Positions 4,476 to 62,293 of a stretch of DNA of 64,000 nucleotides are shown here, one piece after another. Location: assembly GCA_903832665.1 (NCBI GenBank), contig CAILCG010000024.1:186001-250000 (forward strand). The letters run 5' to 3'. Made by a program: the position numbers and the translations under genes. The notes beneath the pieces are model-generated. The model was given only the letters and a program-made list of their open reading frames with translations, did no database searches and was not told the DNA's origin. This stretch comes from an uncultured Methanomicrobiales archaeon (GTDB lineage Archaea; Halobacteriota; Methanomicrobia; Methanomicrobiales; Methanospirillaceae). How positions within the stretch are numbered: the stretch's first letter is position 1; every line of letters begins with the position of its first letter.

Positions 4476-4587
4476 AACCGACAACCTCAATGGTCTGTTA
4501 TGTCAACGGGAGATCAGGGTATTAATTCTCCGGGATGCCCAGATCCTGGTGAGTGAATCAAAAAAGTTCAGGTGAGTTTTTTTCCAG

Positions 4588-4831: not shown

Positions 4832-4983
4832 ATGTGTTTTTATGGTTTACCGCATATCTGATTCATAGAGTCACCAGCACTCATCCGGGCACACGCACCA
4901 TTCCGTGTGCCGTTAGCCTCTCGGCAATGAATGGAGATGCGCCGAACACGGTACACGCGGAAATTAGGAATCAGAAGAGCGTT

Positions 4984-6336: not shown

Positions 6337-6448
6337 GGGAGCCCGGTTTGAGATCCGGATCCCGACCGGCACCTGGCGATTTCCTGCGGATTAGGCAACT
6401 GAAGATCCGGAACACTCTTTCCATATGATGGGTCGGGGGCGTCCGCGC

Positions 6449-7192: not shown

Positions 7193-7199
7193 AAAAAAA

Positions 7200-7886: not shown

Positions 7887-8106
7887 CACAATCATAGTAC
7901 CTTTGGCGTTTCCCATTCATATACCGGTTACCTAATCCGGAACCTTTTTCAGAACCGCGAGGTCGTAAGATGGAGGCGCCTGGGCCCGGGTCCCTGAAAG
8001 AAATCGGTAAAAAAGATCCTGGTGACCCGAGATTTCACTTGTGATATTTTATGGAAAAAGGACGGGGTTTTTTGAAAAAATCTCTGTGCTGGCCCCCCCG
8101 GGGTTA

Positions 8107-8475: not shown

Positions 8476-8581
8476 AGTACTCCCCACTTTTTCTTGTCAG
8501 GTTACTAAAGAGCCTGCACCCACTAACAAACATCACACAATTTCTTATATAATATGTTCCATGACCCGGATACGGCTCTTT

Positions 8582-14387: not shown

Positions 14388-14454
14388 TGGATATCCGGCT
14401 GATATTTTCTGAAACGTGTTGGGATGGTCCCTTCTATCCCGCGGGGTGTCCGGT

Positions 14455-15888: not shown

Positions 15889-16049
15889 TGATCCTTTACA
15901 TTTCAATGCAAAGAAATGGGGTGTGCTCTTACATCCAGTGTCGTCTTTAAAAACCTTATAAAAAAACCAATCCGTATAACTTCTCCCGGTATCGTAACGA
16001 TGATTTTATTTTCGATAAGCCATAATCGGAAACATGCCGGACGTATCTC

Positions 16050-16418
16050 ATGAAACTGCAGAAAAAGTCCCTTTTGGTTTTTGTCATACTTCTTATCGCG
16101 GTTCTCATTGGGATCAGTATCTTTTTCTCCACGGTTCTTCTGGCAAGTTATAGCGCTCTCGAAGAACAATATATTGCAAAGGATCTCAACCAGGCAGTCA
16201 ACAAACTCGATGACGAACTTTTCTCCATGTCATCGGTTATATCGGACTGGGGACCCTGGGATGATACGGTCGAGTTTGTGAACGGCAGGGATCCGAACTA
16301 CCTGAAATCAAATCTGCAACCGTATGCATTCGATAACCTCAACCTGAATCTGATCGTGATCACCGGCACCAAAGGAGAAGTGATCTTCTCCGGGGCATAT
16401 GATCTCAAAACAAGGTGA
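16050..16418 (+). pseudogene. Large CHASE4 sensor kinase, N-terminal piece
   Basis: N-terminal 122 residues of a membrane sensor: a transmembrane helix (about 7-31, LLVFVILLIAVLIGISIFF) and the first half of an extracellular CHASE4 domain (LNQAVNKLDDELFSMSSVIS, DWGPWDDTVEFV, VITGTKGEVIFSGAYDLKT). The frame stops at 16418, in the middle of CHASE4. Removing one A from the ACAAGG at 16410-16415 would join it to the next frame as DLKTGDGPGPRIFSGKLD, which agrees with the domain. The start ATG follows T/A-rich promoter-like sequence (CTTTAAAAACCTTATAAAA at about 15946-15963). Confidence 0.8.
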
Positions 16419-18747
16419 TGGTCCCGGTCCCCGCATTTTTTCCGGGAAACTGGATCCAGAAGATCCCCTGATGAATATGTCGGATCCCCGTCACATAACC
16501 TCAGGAATCCTGATGCTTCCCGGTGACCCGATGCTGGTTGTATCCCAACCGGTTGTACGCTCCAATTATTCCGGTTCTCCCCAGGGAGTAATCATTATGG
16601 GCAGGTACCTCAACAATGAGGAAATCTCGCGGCTTTCAGGGCTCACTCAACCCAGTCTTACATTCATCCGCATGGATGATCCGGCCTTGTCCCGGGATCT
16701 TTTGTCCCGTATCCGGCAGAACACGGGAACGGCGGGAGGTGTATTCCAGCCGCTCAACGAGAATCTTGTGGCGGGATCTGCCCTTATCCGCGACATTTAT
16801 GGGAATGATGCGCTCGTTCTCCGGATCATTGAGCCCCGGGAGATTTACCGCCAGGGGGTTAATACCACGGTCCAGGTCATCCTGATCTTCCTTGCAGGTG
16901 GTCTCTTTCTGGGACTTGGCGTCATCCTTCTGCTGGATCACGTGGTGCTGAAGCGAATCGGATCTCTTGCTCTTCAGGTCCATGAGATTGGCCAGTCAGG
17001 ACATTCTGATCATCCCGTCTTTGTTGAGGGTGATGACGAATTGTCAGGGCTTGCCCGGGAAATAAACCGGATGCTGAATACCATCGAGCAGGTGCAGCAG
17101 AAGGTGCAGGTGAGCGAGACACGGTTCAGAGAGCTGGCTGAACAGCTGCCCCTGGTAATTTTTGAGATGGATCTGAACGGGGATCTCAATTATGTCAATA
17201 AAACCGGGGTTGAACTTTTCGGGATCAACGAGGAAATGATCCAGGCAGGCATTAATATCCGCCGCTACGTATCTGCGGAAAATTTTGAACAGATGCACCA
17301 AGGACTCTCTGTCGTTATGTCCGGCGCCAAATCACCCGGGGAGATCTATTCCCTGCGTCAGCTTAATGGCGAACTGATGCAGGCTATCGTGTCGACCTCT
17401 CTTATTCGTCGCGATGGCCGGATCACCGGGTTCCGCGGGATCGTGCTCGACATCTCCGAACGGGTCCGTCTCGAGTCCGCACTCACGCAGAGCGAGGAGT
17501 ATCTTCAGACTCTTATACAGTCGATCCGGGTGGGAATTATTGTCATAGATGCAAAAACCCACATAATTATTGATGTAAATCCGGCTGCTCTTGAACTGCT
17601 CGGTACGGTAAAAGATGCTGTTATCAACCAGCCCTGTCATAACGTGATTTGCCCGTCAGAACAGGGAAGATGTCCCATCACCGATCTAAACCAGACCGTG
17701 GATGATACCGAGAGGACTCTCCTGACCGCGGATGGCAGGGAGATCTCGATAATAAAATACGTAGTTCCGGTAATGCTGCACGGCAAACTCTGTCCTCTCG
17801 AAACGTTTATCGATAACCGCTACCGGAAACAGATTGAACTGAAACTGGCGGAAAGTGAAGAGAAATACCGGGCTCTTGCAGAAAACTCTGCAGACATTCT
17901 CTTCTCTATCGATGTCTCGGGTTCATTTACCTATATTTCCCCGCAGGTATCCCGGTACGGGTACAGCCCTCAGGAAATTTTGGGAAAAGAGATCCGGCAG
18001 TTTATTCACCCGGATGATCAGGTGCAAATTCTGAACAATTATCGCAACGAAATTCACGACCGCTTATCCATCTCTTCAACCTTCAGGATCATTGATCGGA
18101 AGGGTGTACTTCACTGGATAGAGGAGAACAGTAATATCAAGCGGGACCCGGATGGCAATCCGACCGGAATGGTTGGAGTTCTCCGCGATGTCACCGACCG
18201 CGTGCGGGCAGAAGAAGCACTCCGTCAGAGCAGGGAGCGGCTTGAAAATATCCTGCGGGCATCCCCTGTAGTAGTCTTTGAGACAGATCCGGGGGGGCAT
18301 CTCGTTTTTGCCAGTGACCTGTGGGAACGACTGATTGGGTACCCCTTTGAAACGATGAAAGGTCTGCACTATTCCGATGTCCTTCACCCCGATGACCGGA
18401 ATCGCGTCGCACAGGATATAAAAGCCCGGGACTGGGCCCCGGGACCTGCCGGGAACGAATTGAGGATCATCCGGCCCGATGGATCGGTGGTGTGGGTATT
18501 TGAGCAGTCTGTGGCGGTCTTCAACCCTGATGGATGTATCCGCGGGTATGTGGGAACCATTACCGATATCACGCAACGCAAGAAGATGGAAGAAGCCCTT
18601 GCAGAGAATGAAGAGAAGTACCGGGCACTTACGGAAAATACCGGCGATATACTCTTCTCTGTTGATATGACTGGGAGGTTTACCTATGTCTCTCCCCAGA
18701 TCAATAAAATTTCATCCATCCGGAGGATATTGACGATGTTGAACTGA
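16399..18747 (+). pseudogene. Large CHASE4 sensor kinase, middle piece (HAMP, multi-PAS)
   Basis: Continues the CHASE4 domain (SGILMLPGDPMLVVSQPVV, GSPQGVIIMGRYLNNEE), then a second transmembrane helix (about VQVILIFLAGGLFLGLGVIL), a HAMP segment (VLKRIGSLALQVHEIGQSG to EINRMLNTIEQV), and five PAS domains in series (starts near ELAEQLPLVIFEMDLNG, LIQSIRVGIIVIDAKTH, YRALAENSADILFSIDVSG, ILRASPVVVFETDPGG, YRALTENTGDILFSVDMTG). The second PAS holds several Cys (CHNVICPSEQGRCPI) that could bind metal or sense redox; inference. The frame fails at about 18706 after SPQINK: the text resumes in another frame with FIHPEDIDDVEL, so about 15 residues of the PAS domain and the frame are lost. The printed start codon is not the true start. 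Confidence 0.82.
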
Positions 18748-19949
18748 ATTTAGCACGGGATCTTGAAATAGGAGCCCAGTTTCATTCTGCATTCAGGATT
18801 CTTGATAAATGGGGAAATACCCACTGGCTCGATGAGAAAGGCACTCTGCGACTCGATCAGTCCGGAAAACCCCTGGGAATCTATGGGGTTTTGCGGGATG
18901 ATTCAGAACGAAAATGGGCAGAAGAGGCACTGACGGAATTAAAAAATCTGTACATGGCGATCTTCGATAATACCGGTAGTGCCATGATCATCATTGGGCA
19001 AGACTCCTCAATTATCCTGGCCAACCCCGGGTGGGCAGGCCTTACCCGGATTTCAAGGGTAAAAAGTGTCGGGCGGAGATGGACTGATTTTATCTATCCG
19101 GAAGATCTTGAGCTGCTGAAAAAAGATAATAACGGTAGTAACGAGAATTTCACACGTACAAATGAATATTCTTTCCGGATCATCGATGCGGTAAAAAATG
19201 TTCACCACTGTCTTGTCAGTATTGTTGTGATTCCCGGCACTACCAACAGTATCGTCGCCATCGTTGATATTACTGAACGGAAACGGGCTGAAGATGCAAT
19301 CGAACTGGCCAATAAAAAATTAAACCTGATGAATAACATCACCCGACACGACATCCTCAATATCATCACCGGCCTCCTCGGCTGCGTTGACATGGCAAAT
19401 GCCACGACATCGGCAGAAGAACGGGTAAGTCTGCTCAGGGATATCAAGGAACTTACCCGGATTATCCAGCGCCAGATCACCTTTACCCGGGAGTACCAGG
19501 AAGTCGGGGTCCACCTGCCGTTGTGGCACAATGTCAACGCACTTCTCAAAAAAATATTGCCGAATTTTACTAAATCCGGCATTGCGATCTCTTCCGAGTT
19601 TGAAATGATGGAGATCTATGCGGATCCATTGCTCGAAAAAGTGTTTTATAATCTTCTTGATAATGCAATCCGGTATGGGGAAACTCTTACATCTGTCTCA
19701 ATTTACCCAAGCATTTCCGATAAGGGTCTCTCGTTAATATTTGAGGATAATGGCGTCGGGGTTGCGCCCGGCCAGAAATATGAGATCTTTAAACGGGGGG
19801 TTGGGCAGAATACGGGCATGGGTCTCTTCCTGACAGCAGAAATTTTAGCAATAACCGGGATAACCATCGAAGAAAATGGAGTTTTTGGGACCGGTGCCCG
19901 GTTCGAAATCCGCGTTCCGAACGGTACCTGGAGGCTCCCCCCAAGATAA
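18708..19949 (+). pseudogene. Large CHASE4 sensor kinase, C-terminal kinase piece
   Basis: Carries the rest of the broken PAS (FIHPEDIDDVELNLARDL, AFRILDKWGNTHWLDEKG), one more PAS (MAIFDNTGSAMIIIGQDS to VDITERKRAED), the phospho-acceptor His in NITRHDILNIITG and an ATP-binding domain (NLLDNAIRYG, EDNGVGV, GMGLFLTAEIL) ending GTGARFEIRVPNGTW. There is no start codon at the frame break; an internal ATG at 18891 is not a natural start. Assembled, 16050-19949 would encode one kinase of about 1300 residues. The kinase part is very similar to that of the gene at 4984 (GLLGCVDMA, TFTREYQEVGVHLP), so the two probably arose by duplication. Confidence 0.82.
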
Positions 19950-47546: not shown

Positions 47547-48044
47547 ATGGGAACGCAAGGCAGAAAGATTGTTGATACCGATGTCGATGAGCTGGTCAAG
47601 CTCCTCAACAAGGCATATTCCGATGAATGGCTCGCGTACTATCAGTACTGGGTCGGCTCCAAGGTAGTACGTGGTCCGAACAAGGAGGCAGTTATTGCAG
47701 AGCTCACCCTCCATGCAACCGAAGAGCTCGGTCATGCAGTTCTCCTCACTACGCGGATTATCCAGCTGGGAGGAACTCCCGTAACCAATCCCCAGCAGTG
47801 GTTCAAACTCACCAACTGCGGGTATGATGCTCCCGACGATACGTTTATCGTCAAGGTGCTGGAACAGAATATCAAGGGTGAGCAGTGCGCCATCAAGTCC
47901 TATAACAGCCTGCTCAAGAAGACCCGGGACAAAGATCCGGTTACCTACAACATCGTTCTGGGAATCCTCCAGATGGAAGTCGAGCATGAAGAGGATCTTC
48001 AGGCTTTGCTGGAAGATGTCAATATCATTATGAAAAACAAGTAA
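47547..48044 (+). CDS. Ferritin-like (Dps/bacterioferritin-type) protein
   Basis: A four-helix ferritin-like protein of 165 residues. Di-iron ligands expected of the fold are visible: Glu in YSDEWLAYYQYWVGSKV, E-x-x-H in LTLHATEELGHAVLL, and later Glu in VLEQNIKGEQCAIKSY and E-x-E-H in GILQMEVEHEEDLQAL. Such archaeal proteins store iron and detoxify peroxide. GACGAGGTGAAC upstream provides a ribosome-binding site. It precedes a set of thiol-redox genes, so an oxidative-stress cluster is likely. Confidence 0.88.
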   Translation: MGTQGRKIVDTDVDELVKLLNKAYSDEWLAYYQYWVGSKVVRGPNKEAVIAELTLHATEELGHAVLLTTRIIQLGGTPVTNPQQWFKLTNCGYDAPDDTFIVKVLEQNIKGEQCAIKSYNSLLKKTRDKDPVTYNIVLGILQMEVEHEEDLQALLEDVNIIMKNK

Positions 48045-48080
48045 TTTTTTCTTCTTTTTTTGATGAAGCGGATCGCACTG

Positions 48081-48330
48081 TTAAAGTAACCTGGATTTCA
48101 GGATCTCCCTGAGGACAAATATCCGGCCGATAATCCGGTTATCTTTTACAACCGGCGTACTTTTCAGGAATGTCCGGACTTTTATGCCACAGTTATTTTT
48201 CATTGTCAGCGCCCCGGTCCACACTCCCTTCGAATCCTCAAAAAATCTCAACGGCCCTATGGCAAATGTATCCCAGGGATACGGGAAATCATTCAGTACT
48301 TTTTTCGTTGATATGCAACTCTCCCGCTCT
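48081..48330 (-). pseudogene. Remnant of a PAS-type sensor domain
   Basis: One minus-strand frame reads like the C-terminal half of a PAS domain: FPYPWDTFAIGPLRFFEDS, KGVWTGALTMKNNCGIKV and VVKDNRIIGRIFVLREIL, ending at a stop at 48081. Upstream the frame runs to a stop near 48351 without an ATG or TTG start that would give a whole domain (a GTG exists inside, at the K-G-V). It is best seen as the tail of a lost sensor gene. It fills most of the gene-free interval 48045-48411; the rest holds T-rich terminator sequence (48046-48063) and the promoter of the next gene. Confidence 0.5.
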
Positions 48331-48361
48331 TTTGTAACGTTTTGCCGGTACTATCATCATT

Positions 48362-48403
48362 CTTAAATACCAATTGCCTCCATTTCCCTGTAAGAAACAG
48401 GAG
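48362..48403 (+). promoter_or_regulatory. TATA-like box and ribosome-binding site of the glutaredoxin-like gene
   Basis: CTTAAATAC at 48362-48370 is TATA-like, and AGGAG at 48399-48403 lies 8 bases before the ATG at 48412. The AGGAG decides for this ATG over the in-frame GTG at 48403. Confidence 0.55.
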
Positions 48404-48411
48404 TGTACGAT

Positions 48412-48690
48412 ATGGGCATTGAACACGTCAATGGAAAAAATAAGGGGAAGGTTATGCTCTATGCACTGAGCACCTGCGGGTGGTGCAACAAGACCAAGGA
48501 ACTTCTGCGGGAACTGGGTATTGAATTCGATTATACCTATGTCGATCTTCTCGAAGGAAAGGAGCAGGACGACGCGATGAATGTTGTTGAACGCTTCAAC
48601 CCGGCCGGCTCGTTTCCCACCCTTGTCATCAATGACAAAAAATGCATTATCGGATTCAGGGAGCAGGAAATCAGGGAGGTATTGCGTTAA
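48412..48690 (+). CDS. Glutaredoxin-like protein
   Basis: 92 residues of thioredoxin fold with the active-site C-x-x-C in YALSTCGWCNKTKELL, cis-Pro in AGSFPTLVIND and the GF-type end IIGFREQEIREVL. Methanogens often lack glutathione, so it likely exchanges electrons with thioredoxin-type partners. It ends directly at the start of the ferredoxin-thioredoxin reductase gene (next base), so the two are cotranscribed and probably work as a pair in which the reductase reduces this protein. Confidence 0.9.
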   Translation: MGIEHVNGKNKGKVMLYALSTCGWCNKTKELLRELGIEFDYTYVDLLEGKEQDDAMNVVERFNPAGSFPTLVINDKKCIIGFREQEIREVLR

Positions 48691-49209
48691 ATGCCTCTCA
48701 TCCAGATCCGGCCGGAGGATGTCGTAGCCTCGTATCATGTCCTGCAAAAAGATGCAACCGATGGCGGCTATCACCTGAATCCGGACGCCGAGTTTACAAA
48801 AAATCTCGTTTCAGGCCTTTTAAAAAATGAGCAGCGTTACGGGTATCCTGCCTGCCCGTGCCGGCTTGCGTCCGGCAAAAAAGAGCAGGATCTCGATATC
48901 ATCTGCCCCTGCGATTACCGGGATCCTGATCTCAATGACTTCGGATCCTGTTACTGTGCCTTGTATGTCAGCGACGCGATTGCAAACGGGGGGAAAATAT
49001 CCGGTCCTGTGCCCGATCGCCGCCCCCCTCGTTCTGAACGGGGAACGATCATTACTCATACGATCCCTCTCTCGGCATCGCCGTCACCTACCCTTCCCCT
49101 TCCGGTCTGGCGCTGCAAAGTCTGTGGCTACCTGTGTGCCCGGGAGCAACCTCCTGAGATCTGTCCCATCTGCAAAGTGACGAAGGACCGGTTTGAACGG
49201 TTCATGTAA
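48691..49209 (+). CDS. Ferredoxin-thioredoxin reductase catalytic subunit fused to rubredoxin
   Basis: 172 residues. The N-terminal part (about 1-110) is the FTR catalytic beta subunit: cluster and disulfide cysteines in [26 protein letters not shown] and SCYCALYV carry a [4Fe-4S] cluster next to a redox disulfide and pass electrons from ferredoxin to a thiol protein. After a linker (about 110-135) a rubredoxin-type domain (about 136-172) supplies an Fe(Cys)4 site: [20 protein letters not shown] with ICKV. The fusion suggests that electrons enter or leave through rubredoxin iron instead of a separate FTR variable subunit, none of which is seen here. The likely target is the adjacent glutaredoxin-like protein. 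Confidence 0.9.
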
Positions 49210-49281
49210 TCTTTTACCCTTTATTTTTCCGTCCTTTTGGGTTCATCGATTATCCGGTGTCATTTTCCCAATCCTGATATA

Positions 49282-49644
49282 ATGCTGCGACCAGATAGTA
49301 CTGGTATGGCAGGCCCCATAAAAGTCGAGATTATTGGTCTGAAAGATTCTGAATGCTGTCCGTTTCCCTGCGATGATAACCGGAACTGCGGGCTTTCTGA
49401 CTGCTACCCCACCGGCAAGCTGACCGCTGCATATGATGCCCTGGCCTCTGCACTGAAAGCCCAGTACGGGGACCGGGTAGAACTCCAGCTGACGCTGGTG
49501 GATGATGGTGTACCGGATTACGTGAAGCAGATCATCGAGAACGATTTTCCCCCGCTGCCCATTGTCATGGTGAACGGGAAACTCACCCGTATAGGGCGTA
49601 TAGTTCTCGACCGGATAAAAAAAGAGATAGATGCTGTCTGCTGA
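49282..49644 (+). CDS. Small Cys-rich protein, possibly thioredoxin-fold
   Basis: About 120 residues (or 112 from an ATG at 49306). It has a Cys cluster near the start (DSECCPFPCDDNRNCGLSDC) and then a pattern like a thioredoxin fold (VELQLTLVDDGVPDYVK, a cis-Pro-like FPPLPIVMVNGKL) and a last Cys at the C-terminus. It follows the reductase operon on the same strand by about 70 bases, so a redox or metal role is likely. I cannot name a family. Confidence 0.65.
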   Translation: MLRPDSTGMAGPIKVEIIGLKDSECCPFPCDDNRNCGLSDCYPTGKLTAAYDALASALKAQYGDRVELQLTLVDDGVPDYVKQIIENDFPPLPIVMVNGKLTRIGRIVLDRIKKEIDAVC

Positions 49645-49647
49645 TAA

Positions 49648-50229
49648 TCAGGTAACTCTCGTAAGGGCACCCGTACCGAGATCATAGTAAAGACCGTGGA
49701 CCTGTACTCTCTGCTCATCAACAGCCTTTTTCAGCAGGGGGTACGTGTGAAGATGTTCTATCTGGAGCCTCACGTTCTCCTGTTCTATCAGCCGGTATCG
49801 CTCATCCTTTTCAAGCACCGTAGTCGGAGTGGGTATCGTCTTGTCCCCCCGTTCTTTCGCGTCCCGGGCATTGTTCAGCCACAGGGGAATGTACGAGTCA
49901 GTGCTTTCCTTATCCAGCGCCCGGATCGCCCCGCAGTTTGAATGTCCGCAGATGACCACATCTTCAACCTTGAGGTGAACAACAGCGTATTCAAGTACCG
50001 TGGCAAAATTCCAGTCATGGATCGGCACGATGTTACCGATATTTCTCTGTATGAAGAGTTCTCCCGCCCTTGCCTGCGTGATATGTCCCGTCTGGAGCCG
50101 GGAATCCGAGCATCCGATCCAGAGCACGGTCGGATGCTGGCTCGACGCCAGCTCGCGGTAGTAATCGATGTTCGGGGTGAAATCAGATTCCCGGAACTTA
50201 AAATTTCCCAGCAATAATTTGTCGCTCAT
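49648..50229 (-). CDS. Beta-class carbonic anhydrase
   Basis: Interconverts CO2 and bicarbonate. 193 residues with the zinc ligands Cys in VLWIGCSDSRLQ and H-x-x-C in VVICGHSNCGAIRAL; the Asp-Arg dyad (CSDSR) is present. It feeds or removes CO2 for methanogenesis and for carbamoyl phosphate synthesis. Convergent with the small Cys-rich gene (3 bases apart). It lies 1.1 kb from the Hyf-like operon, a possible link discussed under findings. Confidence 0.95.
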   Translation of the reverse strand: MSDKLLLGNFKFRESDFTPNIDYYRELASSQHPTVLWIGCSDSRLQTGHITQARAGELFIQRNIGNIVPIHDWNFATVLEYAVVHLKVEDVVICGHSNCGAIRALDKESTDSYIPLWLNNARDAKERGDKTIPTPTTVLEKDERYRLIEQENVRLQIEHLHTYPLLKKAVDEQRVQVHGLYYDLGTGALTRVT

Positions 50230-50667: not shown

Positions 50668-51327
50668 TTGTGGAGGTGCCGTATACCGATCATATCTTCG
50701 TATGCTGAGCCGGAACCGTTCAGCGAGGACCAGACGCTCCTTACGCTCTATACTCTTGCCGGTGAGGAGAGCGGAGGTTTTGTTACATTCCGCCCTCATT
50801 TTTTTGTCCGGATTGGCAAAGCCCTGTTCTCCCAGGGGACCGTCCCATCACCGGTCCCGGTTATCGGTCCGGTTGAAGTCCGGGAACTCACGCCCTCGGA
50901 ACTTGTCCGTGCTGAACGGGAGCTCTGGACCCATTACCACCAGCAGACTGCCGATCGGGTCAATGACCGGCTCTTTGCCGCCTTTGCCGGTACCAAGCTG
51001 ATTGGCGTGGCCCGGTGCTCACGTCATCCCGATGGCCTCGAGGTCGATGCCGTCTATGTCCTGGACGAATACCGTCGCCAGGGGTTTGCCCGTTCGGTTA
51101 TGATCCTTCTCATCGTGGAATGTGGATGCCAGGAGACGCTCTATATGCACTCGAAGACGGAACTGGTGGATTTCTATGGCAGCCTGGGTTTCTACCCTAT
51201 GCCCGAGTGCGATCTGCCAAAGACCATCCGGGACCGGTTCGGATTTGTTATGGGAAATCTCAAGGGAATTGATGTCTGCCTGATGAAACGGGATCCGGCC
51301 GCCCTTCCCCGGGAACAGAACACCTGA
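50668..51327 (+). CDS. GNAT family N-acetyltransferase
   Basis: 219 residues. A long N-terminal part (about 1-70) precedes a GNAT domain: VRELTPSELVRAERELW, AFAGTKLIGVARCSRHP, the acetyl-CoA loop VLDEYRRQGFARSVMILL (R-x-x-G-x-[AG]) and YGSLGFYPMPECDLP. Substrate unknown. The only in-frame start is a TTG at 50668, so the true start is uncertain. It ends 15 bases before the Hyf-like operon and is on the same strand, so it may be its first gene and could modify a complex subunit or respond to its function (inference). Confidence 0.78.
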   Translation: MWRCRIPIISSYAEPEPFSEDQTLLTLYTLAGEESGGFVTFRPHFFVRIGKALFSQGTVPSPVPVIGPVEVRELTPSELVRAERELWTHYHQQTADRVNDRLFAAFAGTKLIGVARCSRHPDGLEVDAVYVLDEYRRQGFARSVMILLIVECGCQETLYMHSKTELVDFYGSLGFYPMPECDLPKTIRDRFGFVMGNLKGIDVCLMKRDPAALPREQNT

Positions 51328-51342: not shown

Positions 51343-53286
51343 ATGATCGTTGAACTTTTTATTCTTGCAATCCTGGTACTGCTGGCTGGCACCCTGCTGC
51401 CTCTTGCCGCGGTATCGCAGGACCGGAGAATCGTGCGGACGATCTCCCTCTCCTGTATCATCATTGCCTCTCTCCTGCTGGCATGCCTGTCCCTCGCGAA
51501 CCTGTTCTCCGGTAAACCGGTCCCTTTTACCCTCTACCAGCCCCTTCCTCTCGTTTCCCTCTCGTTCGTGATCGACCGGCTCGCCTCCTTTTTCCTGCTA
51601 ATCATTGCGGTCGTGTCGGCTTGTGTCGCCATCTACTTCTCTGAATATATCGAGCATATGGAAGGGCAGTCCCGCAGGAACCTGCTCTGCGGCAGCACCA
51701 GTCTTTTCATTCTCGCGATGGTTCTCATCGTCGCTTCGGCAAACACGCTCTCCTTTTTCCTGTTCTGGGAACTGATGGCAGCCAGCTCGTTCCTGCTGGT
51801 TACCTACGAGTATACCCATGATGAGACCCGGAAAGCCGGGATCTTTTACTTTATGATGACCCAGCTCTCATCGCTCTTTGTCCTGCTGGGAATCATTGTT
51901 CTCTATGTCGTGTCAGGTTCTCTGGCAATCGCCCCGTTAACCGCCGCATCGACTCCCTTGGTTACGCTGGCATTTCTCCTCCTGTTTGTGGGATTCTCTG
52001 TAAAGGCAGGTATCATCCCGTTCCACAAGTGGCTGCCGTACGCCCACCCGGCAAGCCCGTCCCCCATCTCCGCCCTCATGTCAGGCGTCATGCTCAAGAT
52101 CGCCGTGTACGGCATGGTGCGTTTCCTGTTGAACGTCTTCACCCCCGATCTCTGGTGGGGGGTGCTGATCCTGGCAGCGGGTACCGCATCGGCGGTTCTG
52201 GGGATCATCTACGCGTTAAAAGAGCACGACATCAAGGGCATGCTCGCCTATTCGAGCATCGAGAATCTGGGGATCATCTTCATGGGTATCGGCCTGTCGG
52301 TGATCTTTACTGCCAGCGGTCTTCCCGATCTTGCCACCCTCAGCCTGCTCGGAGCGCTCTTCCACTCCTTAAACCATGCGATGTTCAAGAGCCTGCTCTT
52401 CCTCACCGCGGGGTCCGTGGTATCTGCCACCCATACGCGGGATATCGAACACATGGGAGGACTTGCCCACCGGATGCCGGTCACTTCTGCTCTTTTCTTT
52501 GTCGGAGCTGTTGCGATTGCGGCCCTGCCTCCCTTGAACGGGTTTGCCAGCGAGCTCCTGATCTTCATCTCGTTCTTCACCTCGATGGCTGAAGTGATTC
52601 CCCTGTATAAGGTGTTCCTGTTCATCTGCCTTGCCCTGTTTGCCCTGACCAGTGCCCTTTCGGCAGCGTGTGTCATCAAGGCATTTGGATCGATCTTCCT
52701 GGCTCTCCCGCGTTCTCCCGAGAGCGCCGCTGCCCGCGAAGTTCCCCGTGCCATGCTGATCGGGCCGGGCATCCTTGCCGCAGCCTGTATTCTCCTGGGA
52801 GTGGGTGCCCTCCAGATCTTTGCCCTCGTGGGTTTTCCGGTCCCCCTGCCGGATATGCTGCTGGTCAGCCTGCTGCTCATCGGCATGGCCGTCCTTACCT
52901 ACGCGGTGCTCTATTTCACTGCCTCCCGCGAAGTGCGGGTGAGTGAGACCTGGGGATGCGGGACACTCTCGCAGCGGGCATCGGCTGAGTACAGCGGTCA
53001 TGGGTTCTCGGAACCTCTCGACATCATCTTCTCGGCGATCTACCGCACCCGGACCACCAATGAACGGAAGTTCTTTGACCAGAAAAACTGCCACTTCAAA
53101 GAGGGTTACGGAGAGATTCGTCTCTTAAAAGTGTTTGAGGAATATCTCTACACTCCCATTGCGAAGAAGTCCGTTCTGGTGGCTCTTCGCATCTCGCGTT
53201 TCCAGAACGGGTGCCTGGATACCTATCTCCTGTACGTCTTCATCACGGTCATTGCCCTGATCATTTTCCTCGGGTGGTTTGCATGA
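51343..53286 (+). CDS. hyfB: Hyf-like complex, antiporter-type membrane subunit B
   Basis: 647 residues, about 15 membrane helices; family of HyfB/HycC/NuoL-type ion-translocating subunits. Key charged residues of the translocation path are present: Glu143 in FFLFWELMAASSF, Lys221 in FSVKAGIIPFHKWLP and the Lys/His region LKEHDIKGMLAYSSIENLG. The C-terminal 130 residues (TWGCGTLSQRASAEYSGHGF, YRTRTTNERKFFDQKN) are the usual HyfB/HycC extension. Ribosome-binding site AGGGAG lies 8 bases before the ATG. First gene of the six-gene complex; the stop overlaps hyfC (ATGA). Confidence 0.93.
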   Translation: MIVELFILAILVLLAGTLLPLAAVSQDRRIVRTISLSCIIIASLLLACLSLANLFSGKPVPFTLYQPLPLVSLSFVIDRLASFFLLIIAVVSACVAIYFSEYIEHMEGQSRRNLLCGSTSLFILAMVLIVASANTLSFFLFWELMAASSFLLVTYEYTHDETRKAGIFYFMMTQLSSLFVLLGIIVLYVVSGSLAIAPLTAASTPLVTLAFLLLFVGFSVKAGIIPFHKWLPYAHPASPSPISALMSGVMLKIAVYGMVRFLLNVFTPDLWWGVLILAAGTASAVLGIIYALKEHDIKGMLAYSSIENLGIIFMGIGLSVIFTASGLPDLATLSLLGALFHSLNHAMFKSLLFLTAGSVVSATHTRDIEHMGGLAHRMPVTSALFFVGAVAIAALPPLNGFASELLIFISFFTSMAEVIPLYKVFLFICLALFALTSALSAACVIKAFGSIFLALPRSPESAAAREVPRAMLIGPGILAAACILLGVGALQIFALVGFPVPLPDMLLVSLLLIGMAVLTYAVLYFTASREVRVSETWGCGTLSQRASAEYSGHGFSEPLDIIFSAIYRTRTTNERKFFDQKNCHFKEGYGEIRLLKVFEEYLYTPIAKKSVLVALRISRFQNGCLDTYLLYVFITVIALIIFLGWFA

Positions 53287-54224
53287 ACCTGGATTTTCTT
53301 CTTTACCTGGCGATCAATACCCTGGTCGTCATTGCCGTTTCACCCCTCTTTGTCAGCCTGATCAAGAAGATCAAGGCCCGGACCCAGGGGCGGCAGGGCC
53401 CCACCGTCTTCCAGACCTATTATACGCTCATAAAACTGCTGAAAAAAGAGGTCATCTACTCTCCCAACTCCTCGCGGATCATGCGGGTCACGCCGCTGGT
53501 AACGATGGCCGCAATCCTTGTTGCGGCGCTCTTTGTCCCGCTGGTCTTTGTACCTGAACCGGTCGGGGGCATCGGCAACATCATCCTCTTTTTGTACCTG
53601 CTCGCGCTGGCCCGCTTCTTCATGGCACTCGCGGGGCTGGATGCCGGCAGTTCCTTTGGAGGGATGGGCAGCTCGCGGGAGATGAGCATCTCGTCCATCA
53701 TCGAGCCCACGACCATCATTGTCTTTGCTGCGCTCGCGTTCGTCTTTAAAACCCTCAACATCTTTGACATGTTCACCCTCAATGCGTCCACCGGGTCACC
53801 TTCCCCCTCAACCCTCATCCTGATTGGGATCTCGTTGTTCATTATCATCATCGTGGAGACCTCCCGGATACCGGTTGACAATCCCGAGACGCATCTCGAA
53901 CTGACCATGATCCACGAGGGGATGATTCTTGAACAGTCGGGCAGGAACCTGGCCCTCATGGAACTCTCTGCGGCAGTCAAGATGACGGTCCTCATGGCGC
54001 TTCTCATCAACCTGATTGTTCCCTTCGGGCTGATGACTACCCTGACCCTTGCCGGGCTCCTCATTGCCATTGTCGTCTTCGTGGTGAAGGGTTCTATCCT
54101 GGCGGGCATCATCGGTCTCTTTGAATCCTCGATGGCCAAGAAACGGTTCTTCCAGCTCCCGAGTCTCTTTGCCATGGCATTCTTCTTCTCGACCTTAATC
54201 ATCATCATCGCGGTGTTCTCATGA
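53283..54224 (+). CDS. hyfC: Hyf-like complex, membrane subunit C (NuoH/HycD type)
   Basis: About 313 residues with 8 membrane helices, homologous to HyfC/HycD/NuoH, the subunit that connects the peripheral arm to the antiporter subunits. Visible are the cytoplasmic loop RTQGRQGPTVFQTYYTLIKL, the loop SSFGGMGSSREMSISSIIEP and the acidic loop VDNPETHLELTMIHEGMILE that lines the quinone/coupling region in complex I. All coupling-loop residues I can check are kept even though the redox sites in HyfG and HyfI are lost. Start ATG in the hyfB stop; stop overlaps hyfE. Confidence 0.93.
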   Translation: MNLDFLLYLAINTLVVIAVSPLFVSLIKKIKARTQGRQGPTVFQTYYTLIKLLKKEVIYSPNSSRIMRVTPLVTMAAILVAALFVPLVFVPEPVGGIGNIILFLYLLALARFFMALAGLDAGSSFGGMGSSREMSISSIIEPTTIIVFAALAFVFKTLNIFDMFTLNASTGSPSPSTLILIGISLFIIIIVETSRIPVDNPETHLELTMIHEGMILEQSGRNLALMELSAAVKMTVLMALLINLIVPFGLMTTLTLAGLLIAIVVFVVKGSILAGIIGLFESSMAKKRFFQLPSLFAMAFFFSTLIIIIAVFS

Positions 54225-54910
54225 TCGACCAGGCGACCATTGAAGGGATCATCAGGATCCTCTTTGTCTGCATCATCATCACGGCTGCATATATCATCTC
54301 TACGCGAAACCTGCTCACCGTGGTGTCCGTCTACTCGCTCCAGAGCCTCACGCTTGTCGGCATTGCCCTTGCCCTCTGGTCGCTTGACGGTTCCATTGTT
54401 CTCCTGGAAATTGCGGTGATTACGTTGATCAGCAAGGTCATCATCATCCCGTACTTCATTGCAACCATCCAGGAAAAGATCCGGATCAAGCGGGACATCG
54501 AGTTCCACTACTTAAGTCCCACCACCTCGCTCATCATCTCCATGGCCCTGATGCTGGCCATCTACCTGGCGTTCACCCGGATCATGAAGGATTCCCCCAA
54601 TGCGACGGGGGGTCTCATCTTCTTTGGCGCTGTGCTGGGAATATCGCTGATGCTCATGGGAATGATGGTGACGTTCAGCAGGAAGAGGACGATCACCAAA
54701 GTCCTGGGTTTCCTTTCCATGGAAAACGGGGTACTCCTCTTCGGCATGTTCGTGACCGAACTCCCGTTCATCATCGAGTTTTTGATCGTGATCGACCTGA
54801 TCATTCTCGTTATCTTAACAACGATATTGTCGGTGGGTATCGACTCGACTCTTGAGGATTACCATAAACGTCTCCACCGTTTCCATCTCCTGGAAGAGGA
54901 GGAATCATGA
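54221..54910 (+). CDS. hyfE: Hyf-like complex, membrane subunit E
   Basis: 229 residues and about 7 membrane helices, matching HyfE, which corresponds to a NuoK-like subunit fused to extra helices. Features: IIIPYFIATIQEKIRIKRDI, ISLMLMGMMVTFSRKRTITK and FLSMENGVLLFGMFVTELPF; the Glu residues in the last segment fit the NuoK-type Glu pair. Overlaps both neighbours by 4 bases. Confidence 0.9.
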   Translation: MIDQATIEGIIRILFVCIIITAAYIISTRNLLTVVSVYSLQSLTLVGIALALWSLDGSIVLLEIAVITLISKVIIIPYFIATIQEKIRIKRDIEFHYLSPTTSLIISMALMLAIYLAFTRIMKDSPNATGGLIFFGAVLGISLMLMGMMVTFSRKRTITKVLGFLSMENGVLLFGMFVTELPFIIEFLIVIDLIILVILTTILSVGIDSTLEDYHKRLHRFHLLEEEES

Positions 54911-56388
54911 TCCTGATCGCCTTTGTGCTGGTATCCATCATATCGCTCATCATCATTGCAGCTACCCACAACCACCGTCACATGAATACGGTCTGCATCG
55001 CTCAGGCAGCGATCTTTACTCTGCTCGCTTCCTTTGTAGCGCTGTTCCTGCAGGTACCGGTTGTTTCGTTCTTCATTGGCAACGGATTCTTCTTTATCGA
55101 TCATCTCGGGCTTTTTGAGGTACTCATCGCCACGGTCATCTTTACCTGCGCTGCGGTGTATGCCCGAGGGTATATCGAAGGACTTCTTGAGAGCGGTGAA
55201 CTGGAGAAAGGAAGCCTGAAGCTTTTCTATATGGCCTGGGCCCTGCTCCTCCTGGTGATCGTGCTCGCATTCTTCTCGGATAACCTTGCCCTCTTCTGGA
55301 TCTTTGCCGAGCTGACCACCATTCTTTCCGCCATGCTCATTGCCATCCTGGCCGCCCGCGACAACATCGATGCAGCGATCAAGTATATCTTCGTCGCTTC
55401 CGTCTCCATGCTCTTTGCCTTTGTCGGGTTCATCTTCCTCTTCGAGACCTCGCGGGTTAAACTTGGCACCGGTACCCTGAACTGGACCGAGCTCATGCAG
55501 CATGCCGCCATGTTCTCGCCCAGCATGATGATCGCATCCTTTGTGCTCGTCTTTATCGGGTTTGCAGCAAAGTCCGGTATCTTCCCGTTCCACACCTGGC
55601 TGCCCGAAGCCCATGCCAAGGCTCCTTCAGCCGTCAGTGCCATCCTCTCGGGCGTCCTGTTGAACGTGGGTATCTACGGGATCATCCGCGTGTATGCGCT
55701 GGTTCACCAGACAACGGCCTTTGAGACCATTGCACCGATGCTCGCGGTCTTTGGTCTCCTCACGATCGGGATTGCCGCGTTCTCCATGCTTCCCCAGAAA
55801 AACCTGAAAAAACTGGTGGCCTTCTCGAGCGTGGAAAATATGGGGATTATGCTGGTGGGGCTTGCCATCTCCACGCCGGTTGCCATATTCTGGGTGCTCC
55901 TCCATATCCTGGCCCATTCCCTGACCAAGGCATCCCTGTTCTTCTCATCCGGTATCCTGCACCGCCAGTTCCGGAGCCGTTTCTCGAGCGACGCAGTCGA
56001 CGAGATCAAAGATGTATTCCGGTACCAGCCCCTGGCCGTATGGGGAGTTATCCTTGGGGGGCTTGCGATCATCGGTATGCCCCCGTTCCCCATCTTCTTC
56101 ACGGAATTCTTCATCATGCTGCAGCTGGGGACCGTCTCCCTGCCCGTACTGGCCGTCCTGATGATCCTCCTGTTCATTGCTGCGGGGGGACTGGGATACT
56201 TTGTGCTCACGACTTTTACCCAGGTGTCCGAACCGGATGCCCCCTCAGACATTGAACCCTACCGGGTCCCCGCCAGCATGAAAGTCCCCATCATCTTTTT
56301 GCTCGCGCTTCTCCTGCTCATCGGGATCCTGCTTCCGGCACAGGGTATGGAGTTTCTCAACCAGATCGTCATGGAGCTGAAATTCTGA
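54907..56388 (+). CDS. hyfF: Hyf-like complex, antiporter-type membrane subunit F
   Basis: 493 residues, about 14 helices, NuoN/M/HyfF type. The translocation-path residues are present: Glu135 in LALFWIFAELTTIL, Lys222 in AAKSGIFPFHTWLPEAHA and the Lys-rich turn NLKKLVAFSSVENMG. Together with subunit B this gives two antiporter-type modules. A HyfD-type third module is not encoded. Stop overlaps the hyfG start by one base. Confidence 0.92.
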   Translation: MILIAFVLVSIISLIIIAATHNHRHMNTVCIAQAAIFTLLASFVALFLQVPVVSFFIGNGFFFIDHLGLFEVLIATVIFTCAAVYARGYIEGLLESGELEKGSLKLFYMAWALLLLVIVLAFFSDNLALFWIFAELTTILSAMLIAILAARDNIDAAIKYIFVASVSMLFAFVGFIFLFETSRVKLGTGTLNWTELMQHAAMFSPSMMIASFVLVFIGFAAKSGIFPFHTWLPEAHAKAPSAVSAILSGVLLNVGIYGIIRVYALVHQTTAFETIAPMLAVFGLLTIGIAAFSMLPQKNLKKLVAFSSVENMGIMLVGLAISTPVAIFWVLLHILAHSLTKASLFFSSGILHRQFRSRFSSDAVDEIKDVFRYQPLAVWGVILGGLAIIGMPPFPIFFTEFFIMLQLGTVSLPVLAVLMILLFIAAGGLGYFVLTTFTQVSEPDAPSDIEPYRVPASMKVPIIFLLALLLLIGILLPAQGMEFLNQIVMELKF

Positions 56389-57968
56389 TGACTTCAGATA
56401 CGGATATCGGGATTAGGGCGGCACAGGAATTCCTGGGCACGGATCTGCTGAAAGACCGGATCAATGCCGGACCCTATGATGAACAGTACGTGCGCATCGA
56501 AGAGACGGAATTTGAGTCCGCAGTAACGCACCTGGCTGCCAACAAGTTTGTCCTGATCAGTCTCTTCTGCTGCGAAGGCTTCACGGCAAACGCAGCCCAG
56601 ACGCTCTTTTACGTCTTCGAACGGAGGACGAGCATCCTCGTGCTGGTTCGGGGGGTAAATGGACAGGCTACATCCGTTGCCGATCTCTACCCGGCAGCCT
56701 CCTGGTTTGAACGGGAATGCCGGGACGGGTTCGGTGTTGAGTTTGCGGGGGCTTTCGATACCCGGCGGCTCTTCCTGCACGAGACCTACCCGGAGGGTTT
56801 CCACCCGCTGAAAAAATCATTTAAGAATGCGCCGGTTGTCACCAAAAAGACCGTTGACCCTGCCGGGGAATACCCGTTCCGGGAAGTGAGCGGTGAGGGG
56901 GTATACCAGGTGCCGGTGGGCCCGGTGCATGCGGGAATCATTGAGCCGGGGCATTTCCGGTTCAGCGTGATCGGGGAGTCGATCTTCAATCTTGAGGTCC
57001 GGATGTTCTACAAGCACCGGGGCATCGAGAAACTAGCAGAGGGGAAGACCCCGCAGGAGTGCGTGCGGATCGCCGAAGCAGTGAGCGGCGATGAATCTGT
57101 AGCGAATGCAACCGCGTTCTGCATGGCTATTGAGAAGATCTCCCGGGTGCCGGTCCCCGAACGGGCCTGGTACCTGCGGACCATTCTCATGGAACTCGAG
57201 CGTCTCTGCTCGCACCTGGGGGACCAGGCCGGGATGCTGGTCGATGTGGCGTACCCCCTGGGGGCCAGCCAGTTCTCGGTACTGCGGGAGGAATGTTTCC
57301 GCGAGAACGATCGCCTTACCGGTTCACGGTTCCTGCGGGGGATGGTATCTCCCGGCGGTCTGAACCGGGACATTCCAAAAGCGCAGCTCGATGAGCTGGC
57401 TGCATTTGTTCACCAGATGCGGAACCGGTACAAGGTCGGGCTGAAGATTGTGCTCTCCACCGCGTCAGTGATCGACCGCTTTGCTACGACCGGAGTGATC
57501 CGCCCGGCACTGCTGCGCCCGCTCAATATCACCGGGCCGGCCGCACGGGCGTCCGGTGGCAAGGTCGATGTCCGGGTGAACCACCCCTATGGTATCTACG
57601 ACAAGTTCGCCCCCAGGGTGCCACGGCTCCGGGACGGGGATGTCCTCTCCCGGTTTACGATCAAGGCCTCGGAGGTCATGGACTCGCTGGATCTGATCGA
57701 ACGGCTGATTGCCGCCATGCCGGAGGGAGCCGTCCGGTCCGATGCCCCGGTCCGCGATGGCTACACCCTTGCGATGGTGGAATCTGCCCGCGGCCAGAAT
57801 CTCTGCTGGGTCTGGATCAAGGGCGGCGTCATTGAACGGTACAAGGTGAGGACCGCATCGTTCTGCAACTGGCTGGCGATCGAGCATGCAGTGCAGGGAA
57901 ATATTGTCCCGGATTTCCCGGTCATCAACAAGAGCCTGAACCTCTCGTACGCGGGGACGGACCTGTGA
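56388..57968 (+). CDS. hyfG: Hyf-like large subunit, NuoC-NuoD type, without NiFe ligands
   Basis: 526 residues: a NuoC-like N-terminal domain (about 1-140, ASWFERECRDGFGVEFAGAF, RRLFLHETYPEGFHPLKKSF) and a hydrogenase-large-subunit/NuoD domain. In true hydrogenases the domain begins with R-x-C-G-x-C and ends D-P-C-x-x-C. Here the first motif reads RIAEAVSGDESVANATAF (Ala229 and Val232 at the Cys positions) and the end reads SLNLSYAGTDL (Ser520 and Gly523). All four Ni-Fe-binding Cys are therefore gone. The gene stops right after that motif, so the C-terminal peptide cut off during NiFe maturation is also missing. The protein cannot be a hydrogenase; other regions (GIIEPGHFRFSVIGESIFNL, MELERLCSHLGDQAGML) are well kept, so the fold is under selection. 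Confidence 0.92.
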   Translation: MTSDTDIGIRAAQEFLGTDLLKDRINAGPYDEQYVRIEETEFESAVTHLAANKFVLISLFCCEGFTANAAQTLFYVFERRTSILVLVRGVNGQATSVADLYPAASWFERECRDGFGVEFAGAFDTRRLFLHETYPEGFHPLKKSFKNAPVVTKKTVDPAGEYPFREVSGEGVYQVPVGPVHAGIIEPGHFRFSVIGESIFNLEVRMFYKHRGIEKLAEGKTPQECVRIAEAVSGDESVANATAFCMAIEKISRVPVPERAWYLRTILMELERLCSHLGDQAGMLVDVAYPLGASQFSVLREECFRENDRLTGSRFLRGMVSPGGLNRDIPKAQLDELAAFVHQMRNRYKVGLKIVLSTASVIDRFATTGVIRPALLRPLNITGPAARASGGKVDVRVNHPYGIYDKFAPRVPRLRDGDVLSRFTIKASEVMDSLDLIERLIAAMPEGAVRSDAPVRDGYTLAMVESARGQNLCWVWIKGGVIERYKVRTASFCNWLAIEHAVQGNIVPDFPVINKSLNLSYAGTDL

Positions 57969-57978
57969 GGCGAAAAGC

Positions 57979-58494
57979 ATGGTAAACGCACTAACCTGTC
58001 TCTTAAAAAAGAACGTGACCGAAGAGGCGCCGGCCCGGGATGAAGAGGTCGAGGCAATCGGCCGCGAGATCCGGACCGTGATCGATGCAGTCTTCGGCCG
58101 GAGCCTGGCGATCCGCGAACTGGATACCGGTAGCGACAATGCCACGGAGATCGAGATCAACAATCTCAACAACCCCTTCTATGATGTGGAACGGTTCGGC
58201 ATCAGTTTTGTTGCCTCCCCCCGTCACGCAGATCTCCTGCTCGTGACCGGTGCTGTCACGCACAACATGGAGATCGCGGCGAAGAAGACCTACGATGCGA
58301 TGCCGTCTCCCAAATTCGTTGTCGCGGTCGGCGATGATGCCTGCACCGGTGGGATTTTTGCCGGGACCTATGCGGTTCTTGGCGGGGCGGACAAGATCTT
58401 CCCGGTGGACCTGAAGATCCCAGGCAATCCCCCCACACCGGCGCAGATCCTGTCGGGTCTGCTTGCCCTGATGAAGAAGGCCCGGAAGGAATAG
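57979..58494 (+). CDS. hyfI: Hyf-like small subunit, NuoB type, without iron-sulfur ligands
   Basis: 171 residues homologous to HyfI/HycG/NuoB, which carry the proximal [4Fe-4S] cluster. The usual ligands are C-x-x-C in D-T-G-G-C-N-G-C-E-I-E, a Cys in G-D-C-A-x-x-G-G and a Cys in P-G-C-P-P. Here they read DTGSDNATEIEI (Asp53, Thr56), VGDDACTGGIF (Asp120) and IPGNPPTPAQIL (Asn150), so none of the four ligands is left, while the surrounding residues are unchanged. One Cys (122) sits two positions after the lost third ligand. The subunit can hardly bind the cluster. Last gene of the operon, 10 bases after hyfG, followed by a tandem repeat and a T-run. Confidence 0.9.
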   Translation: MVNALTCLLKKNVTEEAPARDEEVEAIGREIRTVIDAVFGRSLAIRELDTGSDNATEIEINNLNNPFYDVERFGISFVASPRHADLLLVTGAVTHNMEIAAKKTYDAMPSPKFVVAVGDDACTGGIFAGTYAVLGGADKIFPVDLKIPGNPPTPAQILSGLLALMKKARKE

Positions 58495-60529: not shown

Positions 60530-62293
60530 ATGTATCAAACATTGAGTGAAAACAGATTGAATTTTGATTTTGATCCTTCAACAATCACTGATCTTGAAAA
60601 AGAAAAAATACTTCAGTCTTTTTTTAATTCGGATGTTCTTATTGACGTAAGTAATAAAGAGTATTTAAAAAGGATTTCGCAATTAATTGACTTTTCTCTG
60701 GATTTTAAAAGACTCGATGGACTTAATCTCGCAATTATAAATTTAGAACCCTTTTTAGAACGAGATTTAACTGATTTTGAAAGCGCAGAAGGTCACTATT
60801 TTTTAGCTAATGCTTATAGCAATCAAAGAATTTTAAAAATTGCTAAGGAAGATGTTATATCAAAATGGGAAAATCCAGAACTCGAGAAGGAAATTCTCCA
60901 TCTCCGCTTATCGCTGAAATATATTCAATCTGTACGGGAAAAATCCTCTTTTAAAAATAAAAGATCGAAAGAAGAAAAATTCTGGGAAGACACGAGATTT
61001 TCTCAAATTAATACTAATTTGGGAAAGTCGATGAATGATATCGGTAGATTTGCTGAGGGGGTTGAATATAGGAATACAGTATTATCAATTAATCCAAGAT
61101 TTGGGATGGCTTTAGGTTGTAAAGGCATCAGTTATCTGTGGTATGCACAGTTTTTACATGATCGCGGTCATCAATTTGTTTTTTACTATACCGCATATCG
61201 TTTATTAAAAATGTCGTTAAACATTGATTTGGAATACGTTGAGTCGGAAAATTTTCAAAAAGCAATCCCATATATTCAGTCCAAAGTAAAACAAGCATAC
61301 CTTGAAAAAGATCTGGATTTGAATTCATTTTCCCTAGGGGATTCCGAGGAAGAAATCCAATATAGAAAGTGGTGTTTACAAAATTGCTTGTTTTTGAATC
61401 CGCTTAATGACATTGGGCCGTACCCAATAGCAGCAAGAGATATCCTCCATATCCCATCTATAACAACAAACATCAACGAAGGACCGAATTGTCAAATATT
61501 GTATAACCTCCTTAAACAGGAATTTGTTACCGCTAGATATTCATATTATAAAGGAATTTCTGGAAAAGAAGCTCATTTTTCAGATAAAGAAGTATTCCTA
61601 TTTGATACTGAAGACAATCCTATTTATTCAAAAGCATCTGAAGAAATTAAAAATTCATTCCGGATCTGTTACTCAATTTTCGATAAGATTGCCTTTTTTT
61701 TAAATTACTATTTTAAATTAGGACTAATCGAGAATAGGGTGTATTTTAGAAAAATATGGTATATTGAACAAAAAAAGAATAAGCATAATCGAGAGGTTCA
61801 AGTGAAAAAACCCTTAATTTTGAATCCAAATATCATAAATAAAAATAATCTTCCACTATTGGGATTGTTTTGGATAAGTAAAGATCTCTTCGAGGATGAC
61901 ATTAGATATAAAGAGGCTTTAGAACCAGATGCAAAGGAGTGGCATATAATCCGAAATCATCTCGAACACAAATTTTTAAAATTAGGCTTACCAGAACAAG
62001 AATGTTCCTTGCCCTCTTATAATTTTTTAGGAGATGTGGATAAAAATCTCACACATTCGATTGAAATTCATGATTTTGAAAGAAAATCGCTCAAATTGCT
62101 TAAAACAGTTTGTGCCGCATTGATTTATTTAGTCCTATCAATGCAATATGAAGAAGCTGAACGTCAGAACCAAAAAAATAAGGCCGTAAAATTGGTACAA
62201 ATCTCCTTACAGAAATTCCCAGATGAGTCCAAAATTAATGATTATCGTGTTAAGGGGAATAAAAAAAATGTTGTTGGTAAGAAAAAGTTATAG
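60530..62293 (+). CDS. LA2681-type HEPN domain protein
   Basis: 587 residues, very AT-rich and unlike all other genes here, so probably acquired. The N-terminal two thirds form helical TPR-like repeats (AEGHYFLANAYSNQRILKI, SQINTNLGKSMNDIGRFAEG, GCKGISYLWYAQFLHDRGHQ). The C-terminal part (about 370-560) matches the LA2681-like HEPN family: FDKIAFFLNYYFKLGL, VYFRKIWY, LLGLFWISKDLFEDD and the R-N-H-x-x-x-x-K active-site pattern in IIRNHLEHKFLKLGL. HEPN domains of this kind are proposed metal-independent RNases in toxin, antiphage or abortive-infection systems. No antitoxin gene accompanies it. The substrate and trigger are unknown. ATG 60530 follows AAAAA. Confidence 0.8.
   Translation: MYQTLSENRLNFDFDPSTITDLEKEKILQSFFNSDVLIDVSNKEYLKRISQLIDFSLDFKRLDGLNLAIINLEPFLERDLTDFESAEGHYFLANAYSNQRILKIAKEDVISKWENPELEKEILHLRLSLKYIQSVREKSSFKNKRSKEEKFWEDTRFSQINTNLGKSMNDIGRFAEGVEYRNTVLSINPRFGMALGCKGISYLWYAQFLHDRGHQFVFYYTAYRLLKMSLNIDLEYVESENFQKAIPYIQSKVKQAYLEKDLDLNSFSLGDSEEEIQYRKWCLQNCLFLNPLNDIGPYPIAARDILHIPSITTNINEGPNCQILYNLLKQEFVTARYSYYKGISGKEAHFSDKEVFLFDTEDNPIYSKASEEIKNSFRICYSIFDKIAFFLNYYFKLGLIENRVYFRKIWYIEQKKNKHNREVQVKKPLILNPNIINKNNLPLLGLFWISKDLFEDDIRYKEALEPDAKEWHIIRNHLEHKFLKLGLPEQECSLPSYNFLGDVDKNLTHSIEIHDFERKSLKLLKTVCAALIYLVLSMQYEEAERQNQKNKAVKLVQISLQKFPDESKINDYRVKGNKKNVVGKKKL

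Follow-up and report, generated by a model that had tools for sequence, protein, structure and literature searches.

Genes of the operon and their surroundings

We have analysed a stretch of 64,000 nucleotides from a methanogen of the order Methanomicrobiales, hereafter the window, in which six consecutive genes on the + strand at 51343–58494 encode HyfB, HyfC (NuoH), HyfE, HyfF, a fused NuoC-NuoD and NuoB. The genes of the operon and two neighbours, with the evidence for each, are as follows.

49648..50229, − strand: beta-carbonic anhydrase, in which the zinc motifs read CSDSR and HSNC (PF00484, E 4e-49); a recurrent neighbour in Methanomicrobiales and a putative partner at most
50668..51327, + strand: GNAT-family protein directly upstream of the operon (PF13673/PF00583); only a candidate member of the system
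51343..53286, + strand: HyfB-like (NuoL/MrpA-type) antiporter-like subunit (NF006418, 916 bits, cut-off 794; PF00361; conservation)
53283..54224, + strand: HyfC-like (NuoH-type) subunit (PF00146; conservation; tblastn register in relatives)
54221..54910, + strand: HyfE-like membrane subunit (NF008556, 62 bits, below the cut-off; conserved operon position)
54907..56388, + strand: HyfF-like (NuoM/N-type) antiporter-like subunit (NF006427, 669 bits, cut-off 511)
56388..57968, + strand: fused NuoC-NuoD/HyfG large subunit, without the [NiFe] cysteines (PF00346, PF00329)
57979..58494, + strand: NuoB/HyfI small subunit, without the four [4Fe-4S] ligands (alignment; AlphaFold2 model)

For HyfC, the open reading frame begins at 53211, while homology favours the ATG at 53283. 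Both NF006418 and NF006427, whose cut-offs are exceeded by HyfB and HyfF, carry the NCBIfam name 'hydrogenase membrane subunit'. As the initial annotation had stated, no ferredoxin subunit (HyfA/HyfH) is found among the six genes, and methanogens hold many ferredoxins. The operon also encodes no subunit that binds flavin, F420 or NADH and no MrpE/F/G-type protein. Among the genes scanned around it there is no DabA or Cup gene, the beta-carbonic anhydrase being the one CO2-related neighbour.

The GNAT gene is found immediately upstream of HyfB not only in Methanoregula but also in two further families of Methanomicrobiales (L071–L073, 41–46% identity). Further upstream, at 47547–49644, we have found ferritin-like, glutaredoxin-like, ferredoxin:thioredoxin reductase-rubredoxin and small thioredoxin-like genes; most Methanoregula have the ferredoxin:thioredoxin reductase and the thioredoxin-like gene beside the operon, which Methanospirillum does not. 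Downstream, 60530–62293 encodes a large protein with a HEPN_LA2681 domain (PF18733, E 1.4e-66).

Ligand positions and ion-path residues

The product of 57979–58494 (171 aa) matches PF01058 (E 2.7e-26) and the NuoB models, and is 43% identical to the small subunit of E. coli formate hydrogenlyase (7z0s) over the matched part. The initial annotation had claimed that all four ligands of the proximal [4Fe-4S] cluster are gone from otherwise preserved motifs, and the alignment bears this out. That is, D53, T56, D120 and N150 stand in the columns where the cluster-keeping paralogues (Mbh-like L028/L029 and Ech-like L002) have cysteines, and subunit 7 of the E. coli formate hydrogenlyase (7z0s_G) reads GGCNGC, GACGN and PGCPP at the same places. 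The motifs around these positions are preserved.

Of the 36 congeneric genomes that were searched first (the source genome counted), 24 have an orthologue of this NuoB, with replacements of the same kind wherever the positions are covered. Every congeneric orthologue that covers these positions has D53, D or E at 120, and N150, while position 56 is T, A or P in relatives and is thus not fixed. The dN/dS values of the orthologues are small (0.05–0.11). Given this conservation and these dN/dS values, a one-off loss, a pseudogene or a sequencing error can be rejected. The fold is kept as well: the AlphaFold2 model built from an alignment with 59 relatives has a NuoB fold at a pLDDT of 93.9 (64.5 with close relatives alone), and its Foldseek matches are the small subunits of formate hydrogenlyase, Mbh and complex I.

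Could the complex carry an ordinary Fe-S cluster after all, held by non-cysteine ligands or brought in with an intact small subunit that a different operon encodes? Some ferredoxins do bind a [4Fe-4S] cluster with a single Asp among the ligands. Here, however, none of the four ligands remains, and many orthologues have Ala or Pro at one of the positions. The initial annotation had also raised the case of an intact small subunit, encoded separately, that joins the complex. This lacks support as well: a single further NuoB homologue was detected in the genome, and this Ech-like protein, which has all four cysteines, is encoded on another contig and is only ~41% identical. Overall, we regard this explanation as highly improbable.

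In the large subunit, whose motif regions were read directly, HRGIEKLAEG and DFPVINKSLNLSYAGTDL occupy the places where [NiFe] enzymes carry their CxxC pairs. Its C-terminus is GNIVPDFPVINKSLNLSYAGTDL, and nearly all of the complete family members that were examined end in a closely similar motif, DFPxxNKSxNxSYxGxD. None of the members examined has the [NiFe] ligands. This loss was already published in 2009 for Mhun_1817–1822 and the homologues of Methanosarcina acetivorans and M. mazei, with the remark that these are possibly not hydrogenases (PMC2686161).

On the other hand, the residues expected along the ion paths of the membrane arm are retained. In HyfB, E143, K221, H228, H345, K349 and E404 are found at ≥98% in the family (E143, K221, H228 and K349 at essentially 100%), and the TM8 motifs that are most frequent in each of the three groups of relatives described below contain K252. 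The conserved charged residues of HyfC are E165, E216, R219, D223, E230 and E236 (numbered from the ORF start at 53211). HyfF retains E135, K222, H229 and K341, but Asn (N253) stands in for the TM8 Lys found in Mbh and complex I. This is the case in ~95% of the family, whether or not the Fe-S ligands are kept, and may mean that one of the channels is altered. The charged residues of the membrane arm are the same in members with and without the cluster ligands, and so is the extremely conserved pocket motif of the large subunit (HRGxEK; DFPxxNKSxNxSYxGxD), which suggests a common function independent of the cluster.

Distribution and history of the ligand losses

To describe the family, 539 relatives were found in named prokaryote genomes, 80 of which were kept, and searches by class and phylum brought more. 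Organisms are named here as in the records, many of which are metagenome bins. The small subunits fall into three states, the proportions of which are meaningless since the search patterns favoured sequences without Fe-S ligands. Group A (GSDNxxEI/GDDAC/GNPP) has no cluster cysteines and occurs in archaea (Methanoregula, Methanospirillum, other Methanomicrobiales, Methanosarcina, Altiarchaeota, Bathyarchaeota, Aenigmatarchaeota, Woesearchaeota and Thermoplasmata) and in bacteria (Dehalococcoidia and other Chloroflexota); the non-ligand Cys122 in its GDDAC motif is invariant. Group B (GS[TD]NAxExE/GDDA or GDGA/GDPP, with one GNPP) comes from Patescibacteria, Ca. Scalindua and Cryobacterium. Group C keeps the four cysteines; its members come from Alpha- and Gammaproteobacteria, one thaumarchaeote MAG and four genomes (L219–L222) of the phylum to which the window belongs. 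The state without Fe-S ligands is thus widespread among methanogens, other archaea and unrelated bacteria.

The relatives have the six-gene subunit set too, with NuoB as the last gene of the operon in group A and the first in group B. The family is found in genome bins of 0.5–1 Mb, and members without Fe-S ligands are among those of such very small genomes. Certain loci carry additional genes. One Altiarchaeales contig (L138) has a second HyfB-HyfC-HyfE-HyfF set (14290–19316) downstream of its operon (3356–10513). Of the cysteine-bearing archaeal relatives, L219 and L222 have two HyfB genes in tandem, and L219, L220 and L222 an extra small gene between NuoCD and NuoB.

In the tree of the large subunit, group A forms one clade (100/100) whose sister is the cysteine-bearing thaumarchaeote (99/95), while group B stands apart from it, partly near the proteobacteria. 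Parsimony gives 2–3 changes of the Fe-S state, two of which are forced by the starred branches. Constraining all sequences without Fe-S ligands to group together costs 23.5 log-likelihood units (p-AU 0.035), which disfavours a single loss, though the test is borderline and long branches are present. The different place of NuoB in the operons of groups A and B likewise speaks for separate losses. Since the [NiFe] ligands are missing family-wide while relatives keep the Fe-S cysteines, the former were lost first and the latter afterwards. That is, the sequences indicate at least two losses of the [4Fe-4S] ligands, later than that of the [NiFe] ligands.

This order overturns one part of the initial annotation, namely that the losses in both subunits happened at once: many relatives without [NiFe] ligands still keep the Fe-S cysteines. 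The other part, that the peripheral arm is redox-silent, still stands as the natural reading, because the ligands are absent in both subunits, no ferredoxin subunit is encoded in the operon, and the fold and the membrane machinery have been kept.

In every sequence without Fe-S ligands, two or three of the four ligand positions are acidic (DTDN, DADN, TEGD, TCDD, DCDD and others). From background frequencies, two or more acidic residues would be expected by chance at ~0.085 per independent replacement event, which is only modestly unlikely. As an oxidised [4Fe-4S] cluster with four cysteinates has a charge of −2, charge mimicry is a reasonable inference from these residues, weak as the statistic is. 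The same residues might instead bind another metal (e.g., a mononuclear Zn, Mg, Mn or Fe) in a structural or catalytic role. D53, D119, D120 and N150, all at or near invariance in group A, would by homology line the old cluster cavity, and group B likewise has two or three acidic residues there. However, the set of acidic positions differs between the clades (D53 and D120 versus D120 and D150 or E56 and D150), no His or Cys ligand is common to both, and T56 varies freely. We therefore consider a remodelled metal site quite unlikely.

Genomic neighbours, proposed function and known systems

The beta-carbonic anhydrase is the commonest non-subunit neighbour in Methanomicrobiales, where it adjoins the operon at 23 of 40 loci. 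Its arrangement takes at least three forms, as the gene can be upstream and divergent, upstream on the same strand, or downstream and convergent, and most of these genomes carry a single beta-carbonic anhydrase. Two Methanoregula loci (L102 and L103) have two such genes in tandem upstream, one of which is just 56–58% identical to the enzyme at 49648..50229. In a Ca. Scalindua genome, a group B operon without Fe-S ligands lies between a SulP permease and DabA, with further NuoL/MrpA-like genes nearby (L185:7606–20430). These neighbours would fit a CO2/bicarbonate machine, in which ions flowing through the membrane arm power vectorial CO2 hydration or the handling of bicarbonate, with a carbonic anhydrase as partner, by analogy with DAB2 and cyanobacterial NDH-1MS. 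There is a precedent in DAB2, whose NuoL-like subunit works with a beta-carbonic anhydrase-like protein and no redox centre (PMC13144422). Against this, the carbonic anhydrase is unlinked to the operon at ~40% of the Methanomicrobiales loci, and outside this order 29 of 30 genomes with an operon that lacks the Fe-S ligands gave no match to beta-carbonic anhydrase and 29 of 30 none to DabA (one has it); many of these are incomplete bins, so that an absence in any single genome is weak. An obligate partnership with the beta-carbonic anhydrase can thus be rejected as a general rule, and CO2 coupling should be lineage-specific at most. That is, a CO2 link may exist in some lineages, but we consider it unlikely as the mechanism of the complex.

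Outside Methanomicrobiales, ATP synthase genes are found directly upstream of two group B operons, i.e., those for alpha, gamma and beta in a patescibacterium (L163:4617–8547) and those for gamma and beta in a small-genome bacterium (L189:1–1867), an arrangement consistent with a function linked to an ion gradient. In the neighbour survey, for which the genes of GC-rich loci were called with a codon model, neither a ferredoxin nor a formate gene recurs beside the loci with or without Fe-S ligands outside the order, nor does any other neighbour.

The complex might still be an oxidoreductase. A soluble two-electron carrier could give hydride directly to an acceptor in the large-subunit pocket, and such direct donation needs no Fe-S cluster. 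The extreme conservation of the pocket suggests a specific bound ligand, and some relatives have kept the cluster. In addition, a link to formate dehydrogenase has been made for other complexes of this kind (PMC6349859), and in Geobacter their abundance is higher on formate (PMC7894505). The pocket may hold an organic redox carrier, and this possibility counts against a redox-silent complex. On the other side stand the operon without any subunit for flavin, F420 or NADH, the lack of a recurrent neighbour that is recognisable as a respiratory dehydrogenase, and the occurrence of members without Fe-S ligands in very small genomes. On balance, we hold the oxidoreductase to be a minority possibility.

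As all known sites that could hold electrons have been lost and yet the complex is strictly conserved in many methanogens and in unrelated bacteria, it probably moves ions without electron transfer. The absence of the ligands, the strict conservation and purifying selection, the retained fold, the ion-path residues and the repeated loss are firm at the level of sequence. On this basis we favour, at somewhat better than even confidence, a branch of the complex I superfamily without redox centres, whose last Fe-S cluster was lost at least twice in favour of acidic residues and which would still translocate ions. More specifically, the complex at this locus would be an Ehr-type, complex I-like complex, redox-silent and translocating ions without electrons, probably as a gradient-driven exchanger; we put this fuller description at slightly short of an even chance.

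In such a complex, ions would still move along the retained paths of HyfB, HyfC, HyfE and HyfF, which would together act as a secondary transporter driven by a gradient, most likely as a cation/proton exchanger by analogy with Mrp. The NuoB-NuoCD arm would serve as a rigid cap and a gate on the HyfC channel. The acidic residues (D53 and D120 here) would fill the former cluster cavity and hold a local negative charge there, as the oxidised four-cysteine cluster does. We infer the absence of a bound metal or electron carrier, this charge mimicry and the gating by the arm, as well as the ion, the direction of its transport and the driving force.

The coupling between electron transfer and ion pumping is an old question in the study of complex I. 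If the above reading is true, complex I-type pumping is separable from electron transfer, and a complex that shares its membrane arm, its NuoH channel and its NuoB/C/D cap but has no redox centre would offer a natural uncoupled control, which would reveal the mechanical role of the arm and the content of the cluster cavity. It would also open a direct route to the function of these complexes in methanogens (among which M. acetivorans is amenable to genetics) as well as in Patescibacteria and anammox bacteria. Meanwhile, the labels 'hydrogenase 4 subunit' and 'NADH dehydrogenase' on such operons mislead metabolic reconstructions.

Among known systems, complexes of this kind are the Ehr, or energy-converting hydrogenase-related, complexes (PMC6349859, PMC12342949), whose function was still called unknown in 2025 (PMC12342949). 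An Ehr operon is recognised by antiporter-like, NuoH-like, large and small subunits and by a large subunit without CxxC, all of which are found here. The Ehr or 'Pmh' of methanogens has the same subunit set and a large subunit likewise without [NiFe] ligands (PMC2686161, PMC12342949), and the small subunit here, as in a wide subset of the family, lacks the four [4Fe-4S] ligands as well. Intact [4Fe-4S] ligands are kept in part of the Ehr family, are absent here, and are not part of the Ehr definition in the literature searched. That literature holds no description of the loss of Fe-S ligands in Ehr, although the main Ehr paper (Marreiros et al. 2013) might mention it. We therefore assign the complex to the Ehr type, in a redox-empty subset that seems not to have been described so far.

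The E. coli formate hydrogenlyase (7z0s), Hyf and the other group 4 [NiFe] hydrogenases have homologous membrane and peripheral subunits, but they are equipped with the [NiFe] site, a proximal cluster and subunits of the ferredoxin-like type, none of which this operon has; the four cysteine ligands of [NiFe] that mark group 4 are missing from its large subunit. Complex I, Fpo and NDH-1 have homologues of NuoB, NuoC, NuoD, NuoH and NuoL/M and the ion-path residues in common with it, whereas the six genes here include neither the ligands of cluster N2 nor an input module for NADH or F420. In DAB2 (DabA-DabB) and NDH-1MS/CupA, complex I-like membrane subunits are coupled to CO2 hydration, but the carbonic anhydrase at this locus is an ordinary-looking beta-type enzyme on the opposite strand, with neither DabA nor Cup beside it. 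Finally, the Mrp antiporters use NuoL/M-type subunits without redox chemistry, which is the working principle proposed here, although Mrp has no NuoH, NuoB, NuoC or NuoD part, all of which this operon encodes in place of a complete MrpA–G set.
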